From the NCBI GenBank assembly GCA_003221515.1, contig QHSI01000143.1:1-47334 (forward strand): DNA of 47,334 bases, written 5' to 3'. The DNA comes from Candidatus Rokuibacteriota bacterium. Its GTDB lineage: Bacteria; Methylomirabilota; Methylomirabilia; Rokubacteriales; CSP1-6. Shown one piece after another: positions 5,873 to 15,685 of this stretch. The first letter of the stretch is position 1. The number at the start of each line of letters is the position of its first letter. Below the pieces are notes generated by a model, which did no database searches, was not told the DNA's origin, and worked only from the letters and a program-made list of their open reading frames with translations. The translations under genes and the position numbers were made by a program.

Positions 5873-6367
5873 CTAGCCGCCGCACCCGCCGACGGTGACT
5901 TTGACTTCGCGCTTCACCTGCAACAGGGTGCCGTCGCTCTGCTCCACGATCGCGCGCACGTCGCCGGTCTCGCCGAGCCGGATGTTCGCGCCCATGAACG
6001 CACGGCCGGCCTCGGGCGCGAGCGTCACGCGCGTGACGATGGGGATCCGGTTCTTGTCGGCGAGGACGTAGATGTGCCTCACGTAGCTCGTGGACGTCAT
6101 CGGCGAGTCGACGCTGACGGAGACGGGAACCACGGCACCGTTCTCGGCGATGAGCGGCACGTCGAGCTTGATCGCGGGGGAGCCGTCTTTGATGGTCTTG
6201 CTACCGAAGAGGCGCTTCATCGCGTCCTCGACGGTCTCGTTCTGGCCGAGCGCCTGGGCGTGCGCCGTCTGGGGCGTCACGGGGTCGAATCCGCTCGCGA
6301 CGGCGACGCCGAGGGCACTCAGCGTCCTCAGCACCGTCCGCCGGCTCACACGACGATTGCCCATCAT
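5873..6367 (-). CDS. soxY: Thiosulfate-carrier protein SoxY
   Basis: 164 residues. A Tat signal (SRRTVLRTLSALGVAVASG) is followed by a carrier domain, and the protein ends in the canonical GGCGG swinging arm with Cys162. In the Sox cycle SoxXA links thiosulfate to this Cys, then SoxB removes sulfate. GAGGAGG lies about eight bases before the tandem ATGs at 6367/6364. It is the first gene of the minus-strand sox operon and is divergent from the SoxXA fusion. Confidence 0.95.
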   Translation of the reverse strand: MMGNRRVSRRTVLRTLSALGVAVASGFDPVTPQTAHAQALGQNETVEDAMKRLFGSKTIKDGSPAIKLDVPLIAENGAVVPVSVSVDSPMTSTSYVRHIYVLADKNRIPIVTRVTLAPEAGRAFMGANIRLGETGDVRAIVEQSDGTLLQVKREVKVTVGGCGG

Positions 6368-6482
6368 GCGCTCATCCTCCTCTTCACGTTGCCGGCGTTT
6401 CGCGGCGCCGCGTATTGATCACTTGACAACCCCGAGGACGCAGACCCAGAGTGCGTCTACAGCCAGCGCCCCCGGAGCCACT
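6368..6482. promoter_or_regulatory. Divergent soxYZB / soxXA promoter region
   Basis: 115 bases between the soxY and soxXA start codons. TTGACA at 6423-6428 is a perfect plus-strand -35 hexamer; no convincing -10 lies 16-18 bases later (CAGAGT at 18). The palindromic TGATCA just before it makes the block TTGATCACTTGACAA a candidate regulator site. No sox regulator gene was recognised nearby. Confidence 0.4.
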
Positions 6483-7805
6483 ATGCGCCAGAACCAGGTC
6501 CTCGGACAACTCTTGCCTCTCGCCGCCCTCCTCGTGTTCGGTTGTGTCGCGGGAACGGAAAAACACGAGGCGTCGGCCCCTCCACGGTGGACGTCTCGGG
6601 CGATCCCCGAGGCCCGGGGCGAGGTCAAGGAGATCGGCGGCAGAAGAGTTCAGGTCCGTTACAACGAGGAGCCCTTCTCGACCTTCACCACCAACTACGA
6701 GCGGTGGCCCACCTATGCCTACAACGATGCGAGGACCTTTCCCCAGCCGACTCGAGTTCCTCTGCCCAGCCTCAAGGGCGAACCGGGGCGGGGGCGGCAG
6801 TTGTTCATGGCGCGGACCAAGGCGCCCTGCACCGGCTGCCACCTGATTCCGGGAGACGACATTTGGCCGGCCGGAAGCGTCGGGCCAGATCTGTCGGTCA
6901 TCGGCGATCGGCGTTTGCCGGATCGATATCTCTTCGAGCTCATCTGGGATGCCCGCCTGTTCTTTCCCAACACGAGCATGCCCCCATGGGGACCGGCCGG
7001 AATATTGTCGCCCGAGGAGATCGTCCACATCGTCGCCTTTCTTCAGACGCTCAAAGGGAACCCGCCGTTTGTGCCGCCACCGGAGCGGGATGCGACGCGG
7101 AACCCGCATACGCGTCAGGCGATACCGCCCTACTATGGCGACAACTTGGATCCAGCCACGAATCCGGCGATCGTCTTCGCTGAAAATGCCCTGGCCGCGT
7201 GGTCCACGAAGGGACCGGCGGGCAAGGCCTGCGCGGATTGCCACGCGGGCGGCCCGGAACGGGCCATGAGAGGCGTGGCAACGAAGTATCCGAAGTATCT
7301 CTCCGCGTACGGGCGGGTCATGTCGGTTGGGGACTTCCTGACCGTCCACGCTCCGCAGACGACGGGCAGAGAGATGCTGGCCGAGAGTGCGGACAATCTC
7401 AACATGACCATGCTCATCAGAATGCAGTCGAACGGGCTGCCCGTGAACGTCGACGTCACGAGCCCGGAGGCAGCGGCAGCCTACGAGCGTGGGCGGGCCG
7501 TGTACTTCAAGCGGGTGGGACAGAGAAACCACGCATGCGCCGATTGCCACGAAACGGATCGGGGCGCAGGCCGGTTCGCGGGCGCGCGCTTCTTGAGCGT
7601 GGCAAACGAAGGGCTGACCAAGCACTTCCCGCTCTGGTTCATGGCCTATCGCGGGGTCTGGGACATCCGGAAGCGCTTCCAGGTATGCATGCTGCCGCTC
7701 GGCATGAACTATCTACCCGCCGACGCGCCAGAGTACGCCGACCTCGAGCTCTACCTCACCGCATTCGACAACGGCAAACCGATCAGCGTGCCCGGAATCC
7801 GGTGA
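6483..7805 (+). CDS. SoxX-SoxA fusion cytochrome (triheme L-cysteine S-thiosulfotransferase)
   Basis: 440 residues from an ATG preceded by GGAG. The N-terminus is a hydrophobic export signal with FGC at about 19-21, possibly a lipoprotein site. Domain one (about 95-190) is SoxX-like: C116TGCH and the axial-Met loop NTSMPPWG. Domain two (about 230-440) is SoxA-like with C250ADCH and C352ADCH. It ends in QVCMLPLGMNYLPADAPEY-DLELYL, where Cys402 corresponds to SoxA's catalytic haem-ligating cysteine that carries a persulfide. SoxX and SoxA are normally separate subunits of SoxAX, which joins thiosulfate oxidatively to SoxY. Here one polypeptide would supply both. It is divergent from soxYZB, whose operon retains only a soxA relic. 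Confidence 0.85.
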   Translation: MRQNQVLGQLLPLAALLVFGCVAGTEKHEASAPPRWTSRAIPEARGEVKEIGGRRVQVRYNEEPFSTFTTNYERWPTYAYNDARTFPQPTRVPLPSLKGEPGRGRQLFMARTKAPCTGCHLIPGDDIWPAGSVGPDLSVIGDRRLPDRYLFELIWDARLFFPNTSMPPWGPAGILSPEEIVHIVAFLQTLKGNPPFVPPPERDATRNPHTRQAIPPYYGDNLDPATNPAIVFAENALAAWSTKGPAGKACADCHAGGPERAMRGVATKYPKYLSAYGRVMSVGDFLTVHAPQTTGREMLAESADNLNMTMLIRMQSNGLPVNVDVTSPEAAAAYERGRAVYFKRVGQRNHACADCHETDRGAGRFAGARFLSVANEGLTKHFPLWFMAYRGVWDIRKRFQVCMLPLGMNYLPADAPEYADLELYLTAFDNGKPISVPGIR

Positions 7806-7830
7806 CCTCTCTTCGGATTCGACGTAACCC

Positions 7831-9426
7831 TCATCGCCGCGGTTCGCCCCCCGGGATTTTCGCGAGCATCTGGGCATAGGCCCGCAGATAGTAAACGGCG
7901 TCGGGCGCGCGGGCCACGGCGTCCTCGCTCTCGCTCAACTGGACGCGCGCGACCCCACCAAATGTGGCGAGGACGCGTCGGGCGACGTCCAGGTGCTCGG
8001 CGCGACCCCCGACCTGTGCCCGGAACAGGGCCTGGGCCATGACGCCGTTGGCGTCGAGCAGCAGCGGAGAGCTCTTGTCTTCGCTGAAGGCTCCACGGGT
8101 GGCGTCGAAGAGTTCGTGTACGGCAAAGCGGAGCACCTGCTCGGCGGCCTCGAGGTGGCCCTTCGTCGGCGCGACGCGATAGCCCTCCAGGAGTCCCAGC
8201 GCGGTCCATGCATTGGCATCCACCTGACCCTCACCGTGTCGCCGACCGGTGCGGTGCTCGTAGAGGTGGAAGGCCCCCTTTTCGCCAATCAGATTCGCGC
8301 GTATGAACTCGAGCGTGCGGAGGGCGACGTCACGGAGGTCCTTTCTCCCGGAGGACTGGCTGAGGGCCAACATGGCGACCGCCGCCTCCGCGTTCCACGC
8401 CGTCACCTTGTCGCGGTTCACCGGCGGCTGGCGCGCAGCCCGCCGCTCGAGGGGCGGCAGCCGGTAGTACGCGGGATCGGCGCTCTGGCTGCTGTAGAAG
8501 CCCCCCGCGGTCGCGTCGTAGAGATTCCGGAGCAGGTAAGCCGTCGTACGCTCCGCGGCTTCCCGATACCTTGGGTTCCCGGTCACGCGGTGGGCCTCGC
8601 CGAGCAGCGCCGCCAGCGCCGCGTTGAGATGCAGGAGCTTCTCGTAGTGTGGCTGCCGCCACTCGCGTCCTTCGGCGAAGCGGAAGAACCCGCCATCAAC
8701 ACGATCGTAGAGAGCTCCGAGAATTCCATCGAGGCTCTTCTCGACCGCCACGAGATAGCGACGATCCCCCGTGGCCTGATGCAGCTCGAGCAAATACGCG
8801 AGCAGGCGCGGCTGCGGGTATTTGTCCCCGGCCCCGAACCCGCCGTAGACCGTATCCAGGTGCTCGGCGATGAAGCGCAGCAGGTCGTCGCGGAGCCGCT
8901 GATACGTATCCCACGTCACCGGAGCCGGGCCCGGGGCGGCGCCCGGCCGGGTGTCAGTCGCCGGGGGTGGTAACGTGGCGGCATGCTTCACGACCGCCAG
9001 GAAGTCTTCCTTCTTGAGCACGCCCGCAAACGATTGCCGCACTCGGCCCTCAGGACCGAACAGCACGATCATCGGCAGCCCCCGAACATACTTGCGCACG
9101 AGGTCGGGGCGTCGGTCATGCTCAGCGAAGACGTTGAGGTAGTGCCGATTCAGATACTGCGACACCTCGGCATCTGCCAGCACCTGTTGCTCGAAGTACT
9201 TGCACCAGTAACACCAGACGGCGCTGATGAAGAGGAAGACCGGTTTGCCGTCCCGTTGCGCGGCGTCGAATACCGCCGGGGAGTGCTCCACGAACTGCAC
9301 CTTCGAGGCGTCATGGGCTTGGCCCCAGGCATGGGCCACGGGAAAGACGGTGGTGAATCCGAGCGCGAAGACGGGCAGCAAGCGCCGCCTTGACAAGTTG
9401 CTGATGTCGACCCAGAGTCTCCGCAC
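7831..9426 (-). CDS. YyaL-type protein: thioredoxin domain plus six-hairpin glycosidase-like domain (DUF255 family)
   Basis: 531 residues from a GTG at 9426, chosen for GAGGG upstream and because it opens a Tat-like export signal (SRRRLLPVFALGFTTVFPVAHAW). A thioredoxin fold follows with the redox motif WCYWC (Cys ~72 and ~75) and a cis-Pro GLPMIVL. A long alpha/alpha-toroid region of repeated helices occupies about 160-520, with motifs such as DRVDGGFFRFA and VTAWNAEA. Relatives are annotated as spermatogenesis-associated protein 20 or YyaL; their biochemical role is poorly defined. Export and the neighbouring sox genes suggest a role in periplasmic thiol chemistry, but this is inference. 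It converges on soxXA with 25 bases between stops. Confidence 0.8.
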   Translation of the reverse strand: MRRLWVDISNLSRRRLLPVFALGFTTVFPVAHAWGQAHDASKVQFVEHSPAVFDAAQRDGKPVFLFISAVWCYWCKYFEQQVLADAEVSQYLNRHYLNVFAEHDRRPDLVRKYVRGLPMIVLFGPEGRVRQSFAGVLKKEDFLAVVKHAATLPPPATDTRPGAAPGPAPVTWDTYQRLRDDLLRFIAEHLDTVYGGFGAGDKYPQPRLLAYLLELHQATGDRRYLVAVEKSLDGILGALYDRVDGGFFRFAEGREWRQPHYEKLLHLNAALAALLGEAHRVTGNPRYREAAERTTAYLLRNLYDATAGGFYSSQSADPAYYRLPPLERRAARQPPVNRDKVTAWNAEAAVAMLALSQSSGRKDLRDVALRTLEFIRANLIGEKGAFHLYEHRTGRRHGEGQVDANAWTALGLLEGYRVAPTKGHLEAAEQVLRFAVHELFDATRGAFSEDKSSPLLLDANGVMAQALFRAQVGGRAEHLDVARRVLATFGGVARVQLSESEDAVARAPDAVYYLRAYAQMLAKIPGGEPRR

Positions 9427-9448
9427 GTCGATCCCTCGGGGAGGAAGT

Positions 9449-9514
9449 ATGCGCTCGGACCAGAAGCCGGGACAACCGCTATCCCCACGCCAACCCACGC
9501 GGACTCGATCCTGA
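9449..9514 (+). CDS. 21-codon leader ORF ahead of the binding-protein gene
   Basis: The ATG at 9449 follows GGGGAGGAAGT, one of the best ribosome-binding sites in the window. The 21-residue product (begins MRSDQKPGQPLS, rich in Arg, Pro and Gln) ends at a TGA at 9512-9514. That TGA overlaps a CTG at 9511 which opens an excellent signal peptide in the downstream frame (CTGA). This looks like a leader peptide coupled to the next gene. The alternative is a one-base frameshift joining the two. Confidence 0.45.
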   Translation: MRSDQKPGQPLSPRQPTRTRS

Positions 9515-10503
9515 ATCGCCTCTCCCGCTGCATCGCGCTCGTCGTGTTGATGCTCGGGGCTTTCGCCGCTCCGCCGACGGTCGGCGGGCAAAGCCCGAGC
9601 AGGGTCCCCCGGATCGGCTATCTGGTCCTTTCTCCCCTCGCCGACCCGCCCTCCGCGGAACGCGCTGCGTTCCTGGACGGCCTCCGAGAGCTCGGCTACG
9701 TCGTCGGCCAGAACATCGTCATCGAGTACCGGTCGGCGGCGTGGAATCGCGAGCTGTTGCCGGATCTGGCCGCCGAGCTGGTCGCTCGAAAGCTCGATGT
9801 CATCGTCGCCGCGCCAGGAACCGTCGATGCCGCACGAACCGCGACGAAGACGATTCCGATCGTGTTCCTATCATTCATCGATCCGGTCGAGGAGGGGCTC
9901 GTGGTGAGCCTGGCGCGTCCGGGCGGAAATATCACAGGGCCTGGCTGGTCGACAGGAGACCTTGCCGGGAAACGGCTGGAGCTCCTGAAGGAGGCCATTC
10001 CCAAGCTGTCGCACGTCGCGGTGTTGTGGACTCCGACCGACCAGGCCGCGCAGCGCCAGTGGCAAGTCACCCAGTCGGCGGCTCAAAGGCTGAGAGTGAC
10101 GCTCCGGTCTCTGGAGGTCAGAGATCCGAGCGACGTCCCCAAGGCCTTCGCGGCGATGACCCAAAAGCGTCCCGAGGCGCTGGTGACGTTTGCCAGTCCG
10201 CTCACGTCGGCATACCGGCCCTTCATCGTCGAGTTCGCGATGAAGCAGCGGCTCCCGACCATGTTTGCGCTGAAGAGCGATGTCGAGGCCGGTGGTCTCG
10301 TCTCCTACGCGCCGAGCATCACCGACACGTTCCGGCTCGGGGCACGATACGTCGACCGGATCCTGAAAGGCGCCAATCCCGGCGACCTACCGATCCAAGG
10401 GCCCACGCGGTACGAGCTCGTGATGAACCTCAAGACGGCGAAGGCAGTGGGATTGACGATTCCCAAAACGAACCTGCTGCAGGCCGATCAGGTGATCGAA
10501 TGA
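9511..10503 (+). CDS. ABC-type substrate-binding protein (TrpX/YtrG-like, PF04392-type)
   Basis: 330 residues if started at CTG 9511, which gives a canonical signal peptide NRLSRCIALVVLMLGAFAAP; the next usable start, GTG 9544, would cut away its charged region. The mature part begins RVPRIGYLVLSPLADPP and shows the two-lobe periplasmic-binding pattern: FLDGLRELGYVVGQNIVIEYR, VIVAAPG, TIPIVFLSFIDPVEEGLV, PGGNITG, and near the end LPIQGPTRYELVMNLKTA. Proteins of this family bind amino acids or similar small organics for ABC importers. No permease or ATPase gene lies beside it, so it is an orphan here. It is divergent from the YyaL-like gene. Confidence 0.82.
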   Translation: MNRLSRCIALVVLMLGAFAAPPTVGGQSPSRVPRIGYLVLSPLADPPSAERAAFLDGLRELGYVVGQNIVIEYRSAAWNRELLPDLAAELVARKLDVIVAAPGTVDAARTATKTIPIVFLSFIDPVEEGLVVSLARPGGNITGPGWSTGDLAGKRLELLKEAIPKLSHVAVLWTPTDQAAQRQWQVTQSAAQRLRVTLRSLEVRDPSDVPKAFAAMTQKRPEALVTFASPLTSAYRPFIVEFAMKQRLPTMFALKSDVEAGGLVSYAPSITDTFRLGARYVDRILKGANPGDLPIQGPTRYELVMNLKTAKAVGLTIPKTNLLQADQVIE

Positions 10504-10524
10504 CGCGTCGCCCGAGGCCGATCG

Positions 10525-13296
10525 TCACCCGTCCAGCCGATACGCTGAAGCATCCGGCTTGAAGGCGCGGGGCAGCCAGAGCGGCCGGCGCAGGTTGTCC
10601 GGGCCCGGGGCCGGGCGCGCCAGCGCGAGCCACTCGCGGTAGACCTCGAACGAGCGGTTGGTGTCCACGACCACGTCGCCGTAGCGATCGTCCGGGCCGG
10701 GTCGCGACACGGTGACTTTCTGGTGCCAGCAGTGCTGGCCGCTCACCGGGTCGGGCTGCACCGGGAACGTGAGGTTCTGGTGCACGCCGGCCTCCTCCCA
10801 CCAGATGCGCGAGGAGTCGGGATCGTCGCTGGCGAACGGGCGCGGTCCGTGCACCTGGCGCATCCGCCATTTCCCGGGCTCCAGGCGGGCCAGATCGACC
10901 AGCGCGGTCGACCAGCGCTCGCCGCCCGCGTTCTCCTGCAGCCGCCAGCGCCCGAGGTGATGCGAGCAGGCGACCACGCCGGGCCGCACGGACTCGGTCA
11001 CCCACACCTTGTCGAGGAAGTGGCCGATGCGCGTCGAGACCTTCAAGAGATCGCCGGTGACGACCCGAACCCGCGCCGCGTCCTCCGGGTGGAGCCAGAG
11101 CGGATTGGTGTGTGAGATCTCGTAGAGCCATTTCGCGTTGCCCGAGCGCGTGTGGATGAGCGTCGGCAGCCGGAACGTCGGCAGCAGGACCATCTCGCCC
11201 TTGGCGCGGTCGAGCTGAGACCAGTGGACGTGGCTCCGGATGTAGTTGGGCACCGCCTGCTCCGGCCACTTCCACGCCTTGAGCGTCTTCGAGAAGAACT
11301 CGAGCTTGCGCGACGGCGTCGGAAAGCCGAGACGGCGCGTGCCGTCGATCTCGACGCCCGGATCCCCGGCGGGCGGCGGATTCTCGTGGGTGCGGTACAC
11401 CTGGTCCTCGATCAGGAAGGCGCCGTACTTCCGCATGTACTGAAGCGGCGTCAGCCGCTCCTTTGCCGCCGCCGCCGGCAGCCCGTGCACACTGTTCTCG
11501 AAGATCCACCGGTACAGCTCCTCGATGCGGAGCTTCAGGCCCGGGCGGTACGGCGACTCGAAGTATTTCCGGATCCCGAGGGCGCCGTCGGGATCGATCT
11601 TCCACGAGAGCTCGATCCAGAACTCGTCTTCTTCCCACACCTGGCCGAGGCCCGCGGCCTCGTGGGCCTGCCAGGTGAGATCGAAGGTCTGGCCCTGCTT
11701 CTCGAGGGCGACGCGAAGGACGGGCTGGCGAAAGCCGATCCAGCGCGCCGCGTGCGTCTCCTGCGACATGAGGTCGTGGCGCTCGGAGGCGTGCCCCATC
11801 GGCAGCACGAAGTCGGCGAACCACGCGGTCTCGCTCCAGATGGGCGTGAGGCACGCGTGGCGCTCGACCTGGGCCTCGTCGGTCAGCATCTCGATCCACG
11901 ACATCCCGTCGGGGTTCGTCCACACGGGGTTGTAGACGCGTGTGAAGTACATCGCGAGCTTGCCGCGGCCTTCCTTCAGGAAATGCGGGAGCAGGAAGCT
12001 CATCTCGAAGAACGCCAGCGGATACTCGCGCGGCATGAGCAGCTCGCTCCACACCTTGCCGGGCGGCGGCATCATCGGCGGCGCCGGGATCGCCTTGTTC
12101 CAGGCGCTGGGCGCCGTCCCACCGGGCGTGCCGACCGCGCCCATCAGCACCACGATCAGCTCGAGCGCGCGCGCGACCTGCCAGCCGCCGAGGTTGCCGG
12201 CGGCGGTGTTGCGCCAGACGTGGGTCGCGAGCGCCGAGCCGGCGCGACCGATCTCGCGCGCCACCTCCACGATCGTCGCCGCGGCGACGCCGCTCTCGGC
12301 TTCGGCGAACTCGGGCGTGAAGCTCGCATACAGCTCGCCGAGCGCCCGCTCGAACGCGTCGAAGGTCACGGGCAGGTCCGGACGCTCCTCGCGCAGGTAC
12401 TCATCCCAGTTGACCCATCGCCGGACGAAGTCGCGGTCGTAGAGCTTCTCGCTCACGAGGATGCGGGCAATCGCCAGCAGCACCGCAGACTCCGAACCCG
12501 GCCAGGGCGCCAGCCACCAGTCGGCCATCGACGCCGTGTTGGACAGGCGCGAGTCGAGCACCGCCACCTTGGCGCCTCGCGACTTCGCTTCCATGATGCG
12601 CTGGGCGTGCGGGTTGAAGTAGTGGCCGGTCTCCAGATGCGAGGACAGCAGCAGGATGAATCTCGCGTTGGCGTGATCGGGGGACGGCCGGTCCATCCCG
12701 TGCCAGAACGCATAGCCGGCGCGCGCGCTCGCCGAGCAGACGTTGGTGTGGCTGTTGTGGCCATCGATCCCCCACGCGTGGAAGACGCGCTGGAGGTAGA
12801 CGAGCTCGTGGCCCGGCCGCCCGAGGTGGTACATGACTTCCTTCGGTCGGCCCTCGACCAGCGCCTTGCGGATCCGCGCCGCGATATCGTCGAGCGCCTC
12901 GTCCCAGGTGACGCGCTCCCACTTGCCCCCGCCGCGTGGGCCGACGCGTCGCAGCGGATAGAGGATCCGCTCGGTGTCGTTCACCTGGTTGAGCGTCGCC
13001 GGGCCTTTGGCGCAGTTGCGGCCGCGGCTGCCCGGGTGCGTCGGGTTGCCCTCGAACTTCTGGATCTTGAGCGTTTGCCGGTCGACGTACGCGAGCAGGC
13101 CGCAGGCCGCCTCGCAGTTGAAGCAGATCGTCGGGATCAGCGAGTACTGTCGCTTGACGCGCTGAGGCCAGGCGACCGGATCGAACTCCTCCCAGTTCTC
13201 CCAGCGCTCGACCGGCGGGTAGGCGCGCAGCCCGCCCGCGGGCGGCGTCAGCTCGCGGGCGACCGGGTGAAGCGGCTCGCTCGAGCGATCGGTCAT
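10525..13296 (-). CDS. Molybdopterin oxidoreductase catalytic subunit, SoeA/PsrA-like
   Basis: 923 residues. The N-terminal [4Fe-4S] site is C58-FN-C61-EAA-C65 with the fourth Cys at ~95 (RGRNCAKGP). A Mo-bis-MGD domain of the DMSO-reductase superfamily follows, with TNVCSASARAGY near 185-196, where Cys187 is the probable Mo ligand. This matches the PsrA/PhsA/SoeA branch. There is no Tat signal, so the active site probably faces the cytoplasm, as in SoeABC sulfite dehydrogenase. GAGGA precedes the start. It lies 19 bases after the FeS/NrfD fusion, as last gene of a seven-gene sulfur operon. Proposed reaction: oxidation of sulfite to sulfate, electrons passing to quinone through the fused partner. 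Polysulfide or tetrathionate conversion cannot be excluded. Confidence 0.78.
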   Translation of the reverse strand: MTDRSSEPLHPVARELTPPAGGLRAYPPVERWENWEEFDPVAWPQRVKRQYSLIPTICFNCEAACGLLAYVDRQTLKIQKFEGNPTHPGSRGRNCAKGPATLNQVNDTERILYPLRRVGPRGGGKWERVTWDEALDDIAARIRKALVEGRPKEVMYHLGRPGHELVYLQRVFHAWGIDGHNSHTNVCSASARAGYAFWHGMDRPSPDHANARFILLLSSHLETGHYFNPHAQRIMEAKSRGAKVAVLDSRLSNTASMADWWLAPWPGSESAVLLAIARILVSEKLYDRDFVRRWVNWDEYLREERPDLPVTFDAFERALGELYASFTPEFAEAESGVAAATIVEVAREIGRAGSALATHVWRNTAAGNLGGWQVARALELIVVLMGAVGTPGGTAPSAWNKAIPAPPMMPPPGKVWSELLMPREYPLAFFEMSFLLPHFLKEGRGKLAMYFTRVYNPVWTNPDGMSWIEMLTDEAQVERHACLTPIWSETAWFADFVLPMGHASERHDLMSQETHAARWIGFRQPVLRVALEKQGQTFDLTWQAHEAAGLGQVWEEDEFWIELSWKIDPDGALGIRKYFESPYRPGLKLRIEELYRWIFENSVHGLPAAAAKERLTPLQYMRKYGAFLIEDQVYRTHENPPPAGDPGVEIDGTRRLGFPTPSRKLEFFSKTLKAWKWPEQAVPNYIRSHVHWSQLDRAKGEMVLLPTFRLPTLIHTRSGNAKWLYEISHTNPLWLHPEDAARVRVVTGDLLKVSTRIGHFLDKVWVTESVRPGVVACSHHLGRWRLQENAGGERWSTALVDLARLEPGKWRMRQVHGPRPFASDDPDSSRIWWEEAGVHQNLTFPVQPDPVSGQHCWHQKVTVSRPGPDDRYGDVVVDTNRSFEVYREWLALARPAPGPDNLRRPLWLPRAFKPDASAYRLDG

Positions 13297-13315
13297 GCGT
13301 TTCCTCGCGTCGGCA

Positions 13316-14878
13316 TCAGCTCAACGGGATGGATTGCCCGGCCTTCACCCACAGGTCCTCCCAGAGCCAGAGCCCGGCCAGCGTGAGGATGGCGGCGAGC
13401 TGGCTCAACGCCGGCAGCGTGAGGGCGAGATCCGCCACCACGAGCGCGATGGGCGCGACGGTCCCCGCCAGCACCACGCCGAGCCAGAAATGCCCGCGGT
13501 ACCCGCCGCGCGTGATCAGCATGGCGGCCTTCGCGACGTCGCGGACGGGGTGATGGCTCCCGAGCTCGATCGCCAGCAGCACGGCGTTGGCGAGGAGCGC
13601 CACCACCATGAGCGGGCCGAGCGCGTCGGACGGATGGAAGACGTAGCGGGCGTGGACGGGCGCCCTGGCCTCCACGGCGAACGAAGCGAGCAGGAGCGTC
13701 GCGCTCCCCGCCGCCAGCGCGGCGACGATCAGGTGCGGAAGCACCAGCGGGCTCTGCCAGAAGTCGCGCCCCTCCGCCTGCCCGAACAGGAACGCGCTGT
13801 ACCCGGCCGTCGCGAGCGCCAGGAACACCGCCGGCACGAAGGCCGCGCTCACGATATCGGCTCGATCGGCCAGGCCGCCGATCAGCCACACGGCGCCGAC
13901 CACACCGAACGCCATCAGGATCCAGGCGCCCCGCACGAGCCACGATCGCCAGTTGGGCTTGAGAAGAACGTACGCGAAGCGGTCGGCGCGCTTGAGGTCG
14001 AGGATCAGCAGCGCGGTCGTAAGCGCAAGAAAGAGCAGGCTGATCGCCGGCGCGCCGATTCCGAGCAGTCCGCCCCATGCCGACGTGCCGACGAGCGCCG
14101 CGACGAGCAGCGCGCCGGCGGCGATCGACTTGGTCCACAGGTAGGCCGAGACCTTCCATCCCCAGGGCCGCACCTGGTGGGGCACGTCGTAAACGGTCCG
14201 GCTCAGCGCTCCAGCGCCGGGCCCCCCGCGTTGCTGGACCGAGGCGACCATCCGCACGAGGTCGACTTCCTCGCGCGGCCGCTGCGCCCAGAGGTACTGG
14301 TCGGACGGCGACTGCAGCTCGGGCGAGAGTGCGGAGGCGTCGGCGCCGAGATAGAAGACCTTGGGCCGCGTCCCCTGCTCGGCCTTTCTCATCTGCACCG
14401 GCTCGCGGTCGACGATCCGGGCGATCGGGGACGACGGGTCGTCCAGGTCACCGGCGATGATCGCCTGCTCGGGGCACACGATCACGCACGCCGGCTCGAG
14501 CCCGACCTCGACTCGGTGCGCGCAGTAGTTGCACTTCGCCGCGGTGTGCGTGTCCGGGTCGATGTAGAGCGCGTCGTACGGACAGGCCTGCATGCAGCCC
14601 TTGCAGCCCACGCACCGTGAGGAGTCGAAGTCCACGATCCCGTCCGAGCGGCGGTAGAGCGCCACCGTCGGGCAGATGGTGACACACGGCGCCTCGTCGC
14701 AGTGGTTGCAGCGGAGCACCGAGAAGTAGCGCCGGGTCTGCGGGAAGGTCCCGCGCTCGACGTATTTCACCCACGTGCGGAACGCGCCGAGCGGGACGCG
14801 GTTCTCCTCCTTGCACGCCACCGTGCAGGCGTGGCAGCCGATGCAGCGGCGCTGATCGATCACGAAGCCGTAGCGCAC
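13316..14878 (-). CDS. Fused ferredoxin-NrfD subunit (SoeB+SoeC / PsrB+PsrC-like)
   Basis: 520 residues from a GTG preceded by a GGGGGGAG run, three bases after the tauE stop. Residues 1-180 are a DMSO-reductase-type FeS subunit with Cys clusters C12IGCHAC, CNHCDEAPC, CVGCKGCMQAC and CNYCAHRVEVGLEPAC, enough for four [4Fe-4S] centres. About 230-520 is an NrfD/PsrC-type membrane anchor with roughly eight hydrophobic helices. It would take electrons from the molybdenum subunit encoded next and reduce quinone. FeS and NrfD subunits are separate proteins in most Soe, Psr and Ttr complexes, so the fusion is notable. No signal peptide precedes the FeS domain, in keeping with a cytoplasmic orientation. 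Confidence 0.85.
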   Translation of the reverse strand: MRYGFVIDQRRCIGCHACTVACKEENRVPLGAFRTWVKYVERGTFPQTRRYFSVLRCNHCDEAPCVTICPTVALYRRSDGIVDFDSSRCVGCKGCMQACPYDALYIDPDTHTAAKCNYCAHRVEVGLEPACVIVCPEQAIIAGDLDDPSSPIARIVDREPVQMRKAEQGTRPKVFYLGADASALSPELQSPSDQYLWAQRPREEVDLVRMVASVQQRGGPGAGALSRTVYDVPHQVRPWGWKVSAYLWTKSIAAGALLVAALVGTSAWGGLLGIGAPAISLLFLALTTALLILDLKRADRFAYVLLKPNWRSWLVRGAWILMAFGVVGAVWLIGGLADRADIVSAAFVPAVFLALATAGYSAFLFGQAEGRDFWQSPLVLPHLIVAALAAGSATLLLASFAVEARAPVHARYVFHPSDALGPLMVVALLANAVLLAIELGSHHPVRDVAKAAMLITRGGYRGHFWLGVVLAGTVAPIALVVADLALTLPALSQLAAILTLAGLWLWEDLWVKAGQSIPLS

Positions 14879-14881
14879 GCC

Positions 14882-15685
14882 TCAGCTCCCCCCGCTCGAC
14901 ATTGCGCGCAGCACGTCCCACCAGACCCGCAGCGCGGCCACCACGATCGTGACCGCGAGCGCCTGCTTGAGGTGCCGGCTACTGAGGCGACGGCTCATCA
15001 TCGCACCTAGCTGCGCGCCGGGGATCGCGCCGGCGGCCACCAGAACCGCCGGGCCCAAAAGGATCTGGTGGGTCACGAGCTTGCCCACGAACCCCGCGGT
15101 GGCCGAGAGCGCCGTGACGCCGAGCGAGCTGCCGATCGTGACCCGGATCGGGACTCCGACAACCACGACCAGCAGCGGGACCAGCAGGAACGCGCCGCCC
15201 GCTCCCACGAGCCCGGCGGCCAGCCCGACGCCACCCGCAACGGCGGCGATCCGGAACGGGCTGTAGCGCGGGGCGGGGTCGGTCGGCGAAAGCTCGGTGA
15301 TGCCGCCGGGCAGCATGATCAGCGCCGCGCCGACCGTGGCGATGCTCGCGAACACCAGCAAGAGCCACGTGCTGTCGACCGTTTTCGACCAGAGCGCGCC
15401 CACGAGCGATCCGACGGTGCTGGCGATGCCGCCGACGATCGCCACCTGCGAGTCGACGGAGTGATGACGCCGGTGCGCCAGGAAGCCAAACAGCGCCGCC
15501 ACGAAGACCTCGGCCATCGTGATACCGGCCACGGCCTTGATGTCGAGGTGGCCGACCCCCAGCAGCGGCGGCACGTAGAGCAAAAGCGGAATCATGACCA
15601 GCGCCCCGCCGATGCCGAGGAGCCCGGCGAAAAACGCGCTCAGGAGGCCGACCCCGAGCAGCGTGGACGCGAGCGCGAGCGTCAC
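14882..15685 (-). CDS. TauE/SafE-family anion exporter (putative sulfite exporter)
   Basis: 267 residues, almost all hydrophobic, about eight membrane helices in two repeats with the family's Gly-rich starts (FFAGLLGIGGALVMIPLLL, then GLAAGLVGAGGAFLLVPLL). Members move sulfonates, sulfite or related anions across the inner membrane. GTG start at 15685. The spacing to the FeS/NrfD gene is three bases, and to the cytochrome gene upstream 37 bases. Inside this operon it could export sulfite made from persulfide or regulate its pool. The substrate is inferred from context only. Confidence 0.85.
   Translation of the reverse strand: MTLALASTLLGVGLLSAFFAGLLGIGGALVMIPLLLYVPPLLGVGHLDIKAVAGITMAEVFVAALFGFLAHRRHHSVDSQVAIVGGIASTVGSLVGALWSKTVDSTWLLLVFASIATVGAALIMLPGGITELSPTDPAPRYSPFRIAAVAGGVGLAAGLVGAGGAFLLVPLLVVVVGVPIRVTIGSSLGVTALSATAGFVGKLVTHQILLGPAVLVAAGAIPGAQLGAMMSRRLSSRHLKQALAVTIVVAALRVWWDVLRAMSSGGS

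Follow-up and report, generated by a model that had tools for sequence, protein, structure and literature searches.

A transporter gene of this soil bacterium, encoding a substrate-binding protein (SBP) of the ABC_sub_bind type, has apparently been deprived of its normal start codon. The explanation we favor, at a probability of roughly 45%, is that in this lineage the gene has lost its ATG or GTG start and relies on termination-reinitiation at CTG 9511, and that the short leader ORF ahead of it is the stub of a deleted tandem gene copy, SBP1, rather than a selected peptide. Four things are visible in the sequence itself, namely the geometry of the junction between the two frames, the presence of the leader in several species, a tandem arrangement of SBP genes in genome G007, and the low pN/pS of the SBP. 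The window, meaning the whole 47,334-nt stretch that was analyzed, corresponds to contig C191 in a genome assembly of 5.1 Mb and 191 contigs. Its features around the junction are as follows.

7831-9426, minus strand: divergent thioredoxin-like (DUF255-type) gene, probable GTG start at 9424-9426 (PF03190, 54 bits; PF13899, 44.4 bits).
9390-9395, plus strand: putative -35 box TTGACA of the SBP transcript, invariant at 7 of 7 leader loci, with a 17-nt spacer in all seven.
9413-9418, plus strand: putative -10 box CAGAGT of the SBP transcript, invariant at 7 of 7 loci.
9438-9445, plus strand: Shine-Dalgarno-like GGGGAGGA, read directly; 7 of 7 loci have a purine-rich motif, GGAG or GGAA.
9446-9451, minus strand: putative -10 box CATACT of the divergent gene, CATA(C/T)T at 7 of 7 loci.
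9449-9514, plus strand: leader ORF of 21 codons from ATG to TGA, best interpreted as the remaining 5' end of a presumably lost tandem SBP gene.
9470-9475, minus strand: putative -35 box TTGTCC of the divergent gene, TTGTC(C/G) at 7 of 7 loci, with 18-nt spacing in all seven.
9511-9514, plus strand: CTGA junction, where the proposed SBP start codon CTG overlaps the leader TGA (-4 nt).
9511-10503, plus strand: ABC_sub_bind SBP, 330 amino acids counted from the CTG (Pfam PF04392, pN/pS).
9544-9546, plus strand: GTG, first usual start codon of the SBP frame; the n-region of the signal peptide would be lost.

The SBP scores 148.9 bits against Pfam model PF04392, for which the curated cut-off is 25.9, and so belongs to the ABC_sub_bind family; its 122.6 bits against NF041285, the model for the tryptophan-binding protein TrpX, fall short of the equivalog cut-off of 390. 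The gene stands between the divergent thioredoxin-like gene and a molybdopterin oxidoreductase. It lies inside a sulfur-oxidation-like locus (window 5873-15685) with SoxY, a SoxA/TsdA-type cytochrome, an Fe-S/NrfD fusion and TauE domains; syntenic loci elsewhere in the genus match it over long stretches.

Upstream of CTG 9511 the SBP frame stays open for 39 codons, as far as a TGA, and between that TGA and GTG 9544 it contains no ATG, GTG or TTG. The original prediction held that the CTG opens a far better signal peptide than the GTG, and the translations agree: the protein from CTG 9511 begins LNRLSRCIALVVLMLGAFAAPPTVGGQ, with a positive n-region and a hydrophobic core, whereas the protein from GTG 9544 begins MLMLGAFAAPPTVGGQ, without a positive n-region. 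Position points the same way. Measured back from the conserved RIGY anchor, the CTG is at 36 codons and the GTG at 25, while seven orthologous 5' ends with a local start begin 33 to 35 codons before the anchor (ATG at 33 in G002; GTG at 34 in G006 and ATG at 34 in G004; ATG at 35 in G001; GTG at 35 in G008 and in both G003 copies, G003a and G003b), the candidate nearest the usual place being taken where several exist. The CTG is thus one to three codons off. G007a (SBP1) lacks a start of this local kind and opens instead with the leader ATG, 50 codons before RIGY. Beyond the signal peptide the gene looks functional, judged from its substitution pattern. Against G001, G002, G004, G006 and G007b, pN is 0.094 to 0.129 and pS 0.382 to 0.507; against G008 the values are 0.161 and 0.508; and pN is less than half of pS in all twelve SBP comparisons made. 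With the frame intact and constraint of this kind in 12 of 12 comparisons, some start should work. A CTG is normally a very poor start codon, and in the window we saw neither a strong Shine-Dalgarno sequence ahead of CTG 9511 nor a usual SBP start with a ribosome-binding site of its own.

What the window does have is a well-equipped short ORF that ends exactly where the SBP would begin. The Shine-Dalgarno-like GGGGAGGA (9438-9445, plus strand) precedes the leader ATG at 9449-9451, with 4 nt between GGAGG and the ATG; the ORF runs for 21 codons, MRSDQKPGQPLSPRQPTRTRS, to a TGA at 9512-9514; and that TGA overlaps CTG 9511-9513 as CTGA, the CTG being in frame with GTG 9544 and with the SBP stop at 10501-10503. 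A direct reading of the sequence therefore upholds the strong ribosome-binding site, the 21-codon ORF and the overlap as first described. Two hallmarks of a coupled NTGA pair are accordingly present: a stop that overlaps the downstream start, provided the CTG is the start, and a good ribosome-binding site and start codon on the upstream frame, where ATG 9449 follows a purine-rich motif kept at 7 of 7 loci. A third, retention of the overlap in orthologues, which is supporting rather than strictly defining, is missing among the leader loci. In the predicted fold of the 5' region, the CTG falls within an unpaired stretch, 9510-9522.

Under the favored explanation, transcription would begin near 9425, ribosomes would load at 9438-9445 and translate the leader, and on terminating at TGA 9512-9514 they would restart one base back, on the CTG. 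The promoter function, initiation at the CTG and the coupling are presumed steps, and for the window we regard coupling as plausible but not proven. An NTGA overlap (-4 nt) is described as the commonest coupled spacing (PMC12548453, PMC10666635), and coupling as falling steeply with distance, the last 15 nt of the upstream gene being enough (passages of PMC10666635). By that distance dependence, the leader would couple less in G001, where the SBP starts 13 nt past the leader stop, and weakly or not at all in G006, where the gap is 22 nt; we therefore do not claim coupling for every leader locus. Several observations weigh against the explanation as a whole: CTG is a poor start, NTGA junctions are common (40 of 104 SBP starts, see below), and the overlap geometry is not conserved. 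The original prediction offered a CTG start reached by coupling as one of two possibilities. It proves the better of the two, gaining support from the position of the CTG (36 codons before RIGY against 33 to 35), with the coupling still putative.

The leader is present in 7 of 9 genomes of the genus, six of them found by DNA search and the seventh, G008, with a diverged leader, by reading upstream of its SBP. A DNA search over 95 genomes of the phylum, with at most nine candidates scored per genome, gave matches at E <= 0.001 in six, all within the genus. Weaker matches to the leader region, E 0.002 to 0.009, occur in G028 and G032, which belong to other genera, at G003:C21, and in G005. The one at G003:C21:33304-33348 (E 0.004, 78% identity along 45 nt) involves the left part of the leader region and is distant from the leader-bearing SBP of G003. 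As for the two genomes of the genus without the leader, the SBP of G002 comes after a cytochrome gene, and G005 has no SBP match at E <= 1e-120.

Where the leader is present, its relation to the SBP varies. Leader stop and SBP start overlap by 4 nt in the window (CTGA) and in G004 (ATGA), where a 13-codon leader ORF meets the ATG of the SBP, reproducing the window's geometry with a usual start; they are separated by 13 nt in G001 and by 22 nt in G006. In G007 and G008 leader and SBP share one frame, with an additional, internal GTG at the usual place in G008. The leader ORF of G003 extends over 102 codons, crossing the SBP start out of frame. This comparison goes beyond what was first noticed, which concerned the window alone: the segment is shared across the genus, carries promoter-like boxes on both strands, and in G007 forms the start of a tandem SBP gene.

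Conservation of the shared segment concentrates in the promoter-like boxes, the region of the ribosome-binding site, the ATG, and about nine codons. Invariant columns at codons 2 to 10 are spread evenly over the first, second and third codon positions (4/9, 3/9 and 3/9), which gives no sign of a conserved peptide. A regulatory leader peptide would show a conserved peptide with synonymous variation; in the seven-locus block we found neither that pattern nor, beginning at codon 10, a single invariant column. On this comparative evidence we take the shared leader for a probable remnant and promoter region, not a regulatory peptide. Structured RNA was considered separately. An RNA switch was rejected when 196 of 200 shuffled sequences folded at least as well as the 5' region, and a known RNA family was rejected because the sole match was irrelevant, at 17.5 bits against a gathering score of 38.

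The origin of such a remnant is suggested by G007, in which the leader ATG opens an in-frame SBP1, followed by SBP2 with a presumed GTG start 34 nt past the last sense codon of SBP1. The SBP2 start region of G007 matches the stretch that follows the leader in G008 at 84% over 68 nt. Had SBP1 been lost from between leader and SBP2 in G008, just such a stretch would remain, although the non-coding part of the match is short, 18 nt preceding the GTG and the rest being SBP2 coding sequence. Among five leader-SBP2 junctions compared, only that of G008 matched the stretch upstream of G007 SBP2; those of the window, G001, G006 and G004 did not. In the phylogenetic tree, one clade (support 93.6/94) holds the SBPs of the window, G001, G002, G004, G006 and G008 together with G007 SBP2 and the second G003 copy, and outside it G007 SBP1 and the leader-bearing G003 copy group weakly (37.9/62). 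The simplest account would be an old tandem SBP pair behind one promoter, from which SBP1 was lost while the stub consisting of promoter, ribosome-binding site and ATG was kept; SBP1 may instead have been gained in some species. If SBP1 was deleted in this way, its upstream end would have been left ahead of SBP2, feeding ribosomes to the survivor. The deletion is presumptive in any lineage, and most of all in that of the window. Because most of the G008 junction match is coding, it lowers our confidence in this explanation and raises that in the damaged-start alternative considered below. In the tandem SBP copies at L063 (G007:C84, 14409-16308), the second lacks about 29 residues across the boundary where its signal peptide ends and the mature domain begins.

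To place the window among other SBP 5' ends of the genus, we drew on 117 SBP matches. Six were dropped because the match began beyond query residue 30, and three weaker paralogues from the window's own genome (L005-L007) were added, for 114 loci; L005, L006 and L014 do not cover the anchor, which leaves 111 5' ends. A usual start codon (ATG, GTG or TTG) lies 28 to 55 codons before the anchor in 107 of the 111, an upper bound, since such a codon may fall within that range by chance. The four that lack one are the window, L024, L113 and L119. Two of them, the window and L024, have a CTG at the usual place (codons 36 and 35), each time within a CTGA that closes a short ATG-initiated ORF. The background for this is not negligible: a CTG occurs at codons 33 to 36 in 8 of 441 cells, the window and L024 included, so that a CTG in two of four start-less genes is only modest evidence. 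Three of the 107 (L114, L149 and L019) have no usual start at 28 to 42 codons and were left out when best starts were scored. Among the remaining 104, the best start is at 32 to 35 codons in 84 and at 36 in two. NTGA is found at 40 of these 104 canonical starts, and in 13 the TGA closes an ATG-initiated ORF of at least five codons, some of which may be real upstream genes. CTGA is therefore not improbable in itself; the oddity is that the usual start has been lost at the usual place.

L024 (G002:C157, about 45 nt before position 1501) is a distant SBP paralogue in which the CTGA at the expected start closes a six-codon ATG-initiated ORF; its homologue L119 does not share the CTG. L113 and L119 have neither a usual in-frame start nor a CTG at that place and look broken near the signal peptide. 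SBP numbers differ widely among the nine genomes, with 38 PF04392 matches at E <= 1e-60 in G003, 23 in G006, and 3 to 12 in each of the other seven, G000 included; G003 and G006, both used in the survey, are 7.2 Mb each with 9% contamination, which may inflate their numbers.

A serious rival to the coupling reading, though in our estimate an unlikely one, is that the SBP start is simply damaged: an event that placed the signal-peptide segment behind the leader removed the ATG, so that the protein is now poorly made, either from a leaky CTG or from GTG 9544 as a non-exported form, and the gene has recently begun to be lost. The break in homology between the window and G001 fits such an event. 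Over 9391-9515 the two differ at 2 of 125 bases, compared with 137 of 1537 in the flank 7851-9390; right after the leader TGA, in the signal-peptide region, identity drops to 31 of 50 in the bin starting at 9501 and 28 of 50 in that starting at 9551, and it recovers from 9601 on (46 of 50). The CTG itself is at the edge of the shared segment. Moreover, the window's signal-peptide segment, 9515-9580, has no convincing match in the nine genomes of the genus (best E about 0.002), and the other two start-less 5' ends without a CTG, L113 and L119, appear to be nothing but broken. Against recent damage stand the intact 330-codon frame and the low pN in all twelve comparisons, together with a CTG-frame signal peptide that is well formed and a CTG close to the orthologous start position.

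The coupling reading can also be extended, doubtfully, to a recurrent class of unannotated CTGA starts. Reinitiation would make start codons expendable in these bacteria, SBP genes without their ATG living on from a CTG usable only by a ribosome that terminates one base away; the window and L024 would be independent cases, the window's being fed by the ribosome-binding stub of a deleted tandem copy. If this is true, the window offers a natural example of a leader born by gene loss that then rescued a gene without a normal start codon, and gene callers limited to ATG, GTG and TTG would set the starts of such genes wrongly and overlook the signal peptides.

We think an incidental leader ORF improbable, more so than a damaged start. 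On that view the ATG and the nine codons at the front would have been kept as the promoter of the opposite thioredoxin-like gene, and the SBP would be translated independently. The argument for it comes from the minus strand. Conservation of the -10 pattern there puts the leader ATG inside the putative -10 box of the opposite gene; 10 of 12 hexamer columns are invariant compared with 5 of 18 in the spacer (Fisher 0.004), or 7 of 9 once the ATG columns are removed (Fisher 0.019); the 18-nt spacing is the same at 7 of 7 loci; and the leader codons, as noted, carry no coding signature by position. These tests treat as independent columns that are not, because the species are related and the hexamers were chosen after the alignment had been viewed. 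An incidental leader also fits poorly with the purine-rich ribosome-binding site ahead of the ATG at 7 of 7 loci and with G007, where SBP1 has, besides the leader ATG, no usual start close to its expected position. Those two facts imply that ribosomes should load at the leader. In the window, moreover, we saw for the SBP no usual start that has its own ribosome-binding site.

On the plus strand, all 12 box columns of the TTGACA-17-CAGAGT arrangement are invariant, compared with 6 of 17 in its spacer (Fisher 4e-4), and a transcription start near 9425 would be expected from it. The -10 box matches only three of six consensus positions, and the -35 box overlaps the coding start of the minus-strand gene, whose codons TTG TCA are the same there at 7 of 7 loci. 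The minus-strand gene starts with GTG at 6 of 7 loci; G004 has GCT, with an ATG two codons earlier. A generic sigma-70 scan of 9200-9700 returned no promoter at its thresholds, and the boxes on both strands are proposed from their conservation at seven related loci, having been picked with the alignment in view; one terminator-like match from the same scan, at 9609-9625 inside the SBP, was set aside. In 9390-9475, then, two putative promoters face each other, with start codons 22 nt apart and boxes present at 7 of 7 leader loci, and the transcripts would be expected to overlap by about 15 nt.

The other possibility raised by the original prediction, a single protein broken into two frames by a sequencing or assembly indel at 9490-9515, is very improbable. 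In its favor, G007 and G008 have this ATG in the SBP frame. The separate genome G001, however, shares the 66 nt except for one substitution (9479) and has the identical TGA, followed by its own SBP ATG 13 nt downstream in a different phase, and the frame relation of leader and SBP varies across species; the comparison of orthologous upstream regions thus leaves a one-base error unsupported. Since the window and G001 could share an assembly pipeline, this evidence is strong rather than absolute. A programmed -1 frameshift from leader into SBP is scarcely credible: the SBP frame is indeed the -1 frame at TCC TGA, but 9449-9520 contains no slippery XXXYYYZ heptamer, the 5' region folds worse than its shuffles (z +2.13), and the phase is not conserved across loci.

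The peptide-sensing leader ORFs tnaC and ermCL are, like the leader described here, short ORFs at the 5' end of an mRNA. Unlike them, this leader has no conserved peptide, shows less structure than shuffled sequences, and matches no RNA family at gathering score. Among the papers listed by topic searches of the literature, none names this locus; the main text of PMC12548453 nowhere uses the word CUG, and CTGA is absent from PMC6728339. Bidirectional bacterial promoters, as outlined in PMC12825309 and PMC10268837, likewise place boxes for two opposite genes in one short region, although the two putative promoters here are separate and face each other. In the bicistronic design of expression vectors, as presented in excerpts of PMC5995908 and PMC10367133, a short leader cistron feeds a real one in the same manner; the present case differs in being natural and probably a by-product of gene loss, and in that no clear internal Shine-Dalgarno sequence for the second cistron was seen. 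The nearest parallel is NTGA termination-reinitiation as portrayed in sections of PMC6728339, PMC10666635 and PMC12548453. Unlike those gene pairs, the upstream frame here is a 21-codon leader rather than a gene, the start is a CTG, and the coupling is putative; like them, it has a -4 nt overlap and a strong ribosome-binding site on the upstream frame, and its short spacing fits their strong distance dependence.
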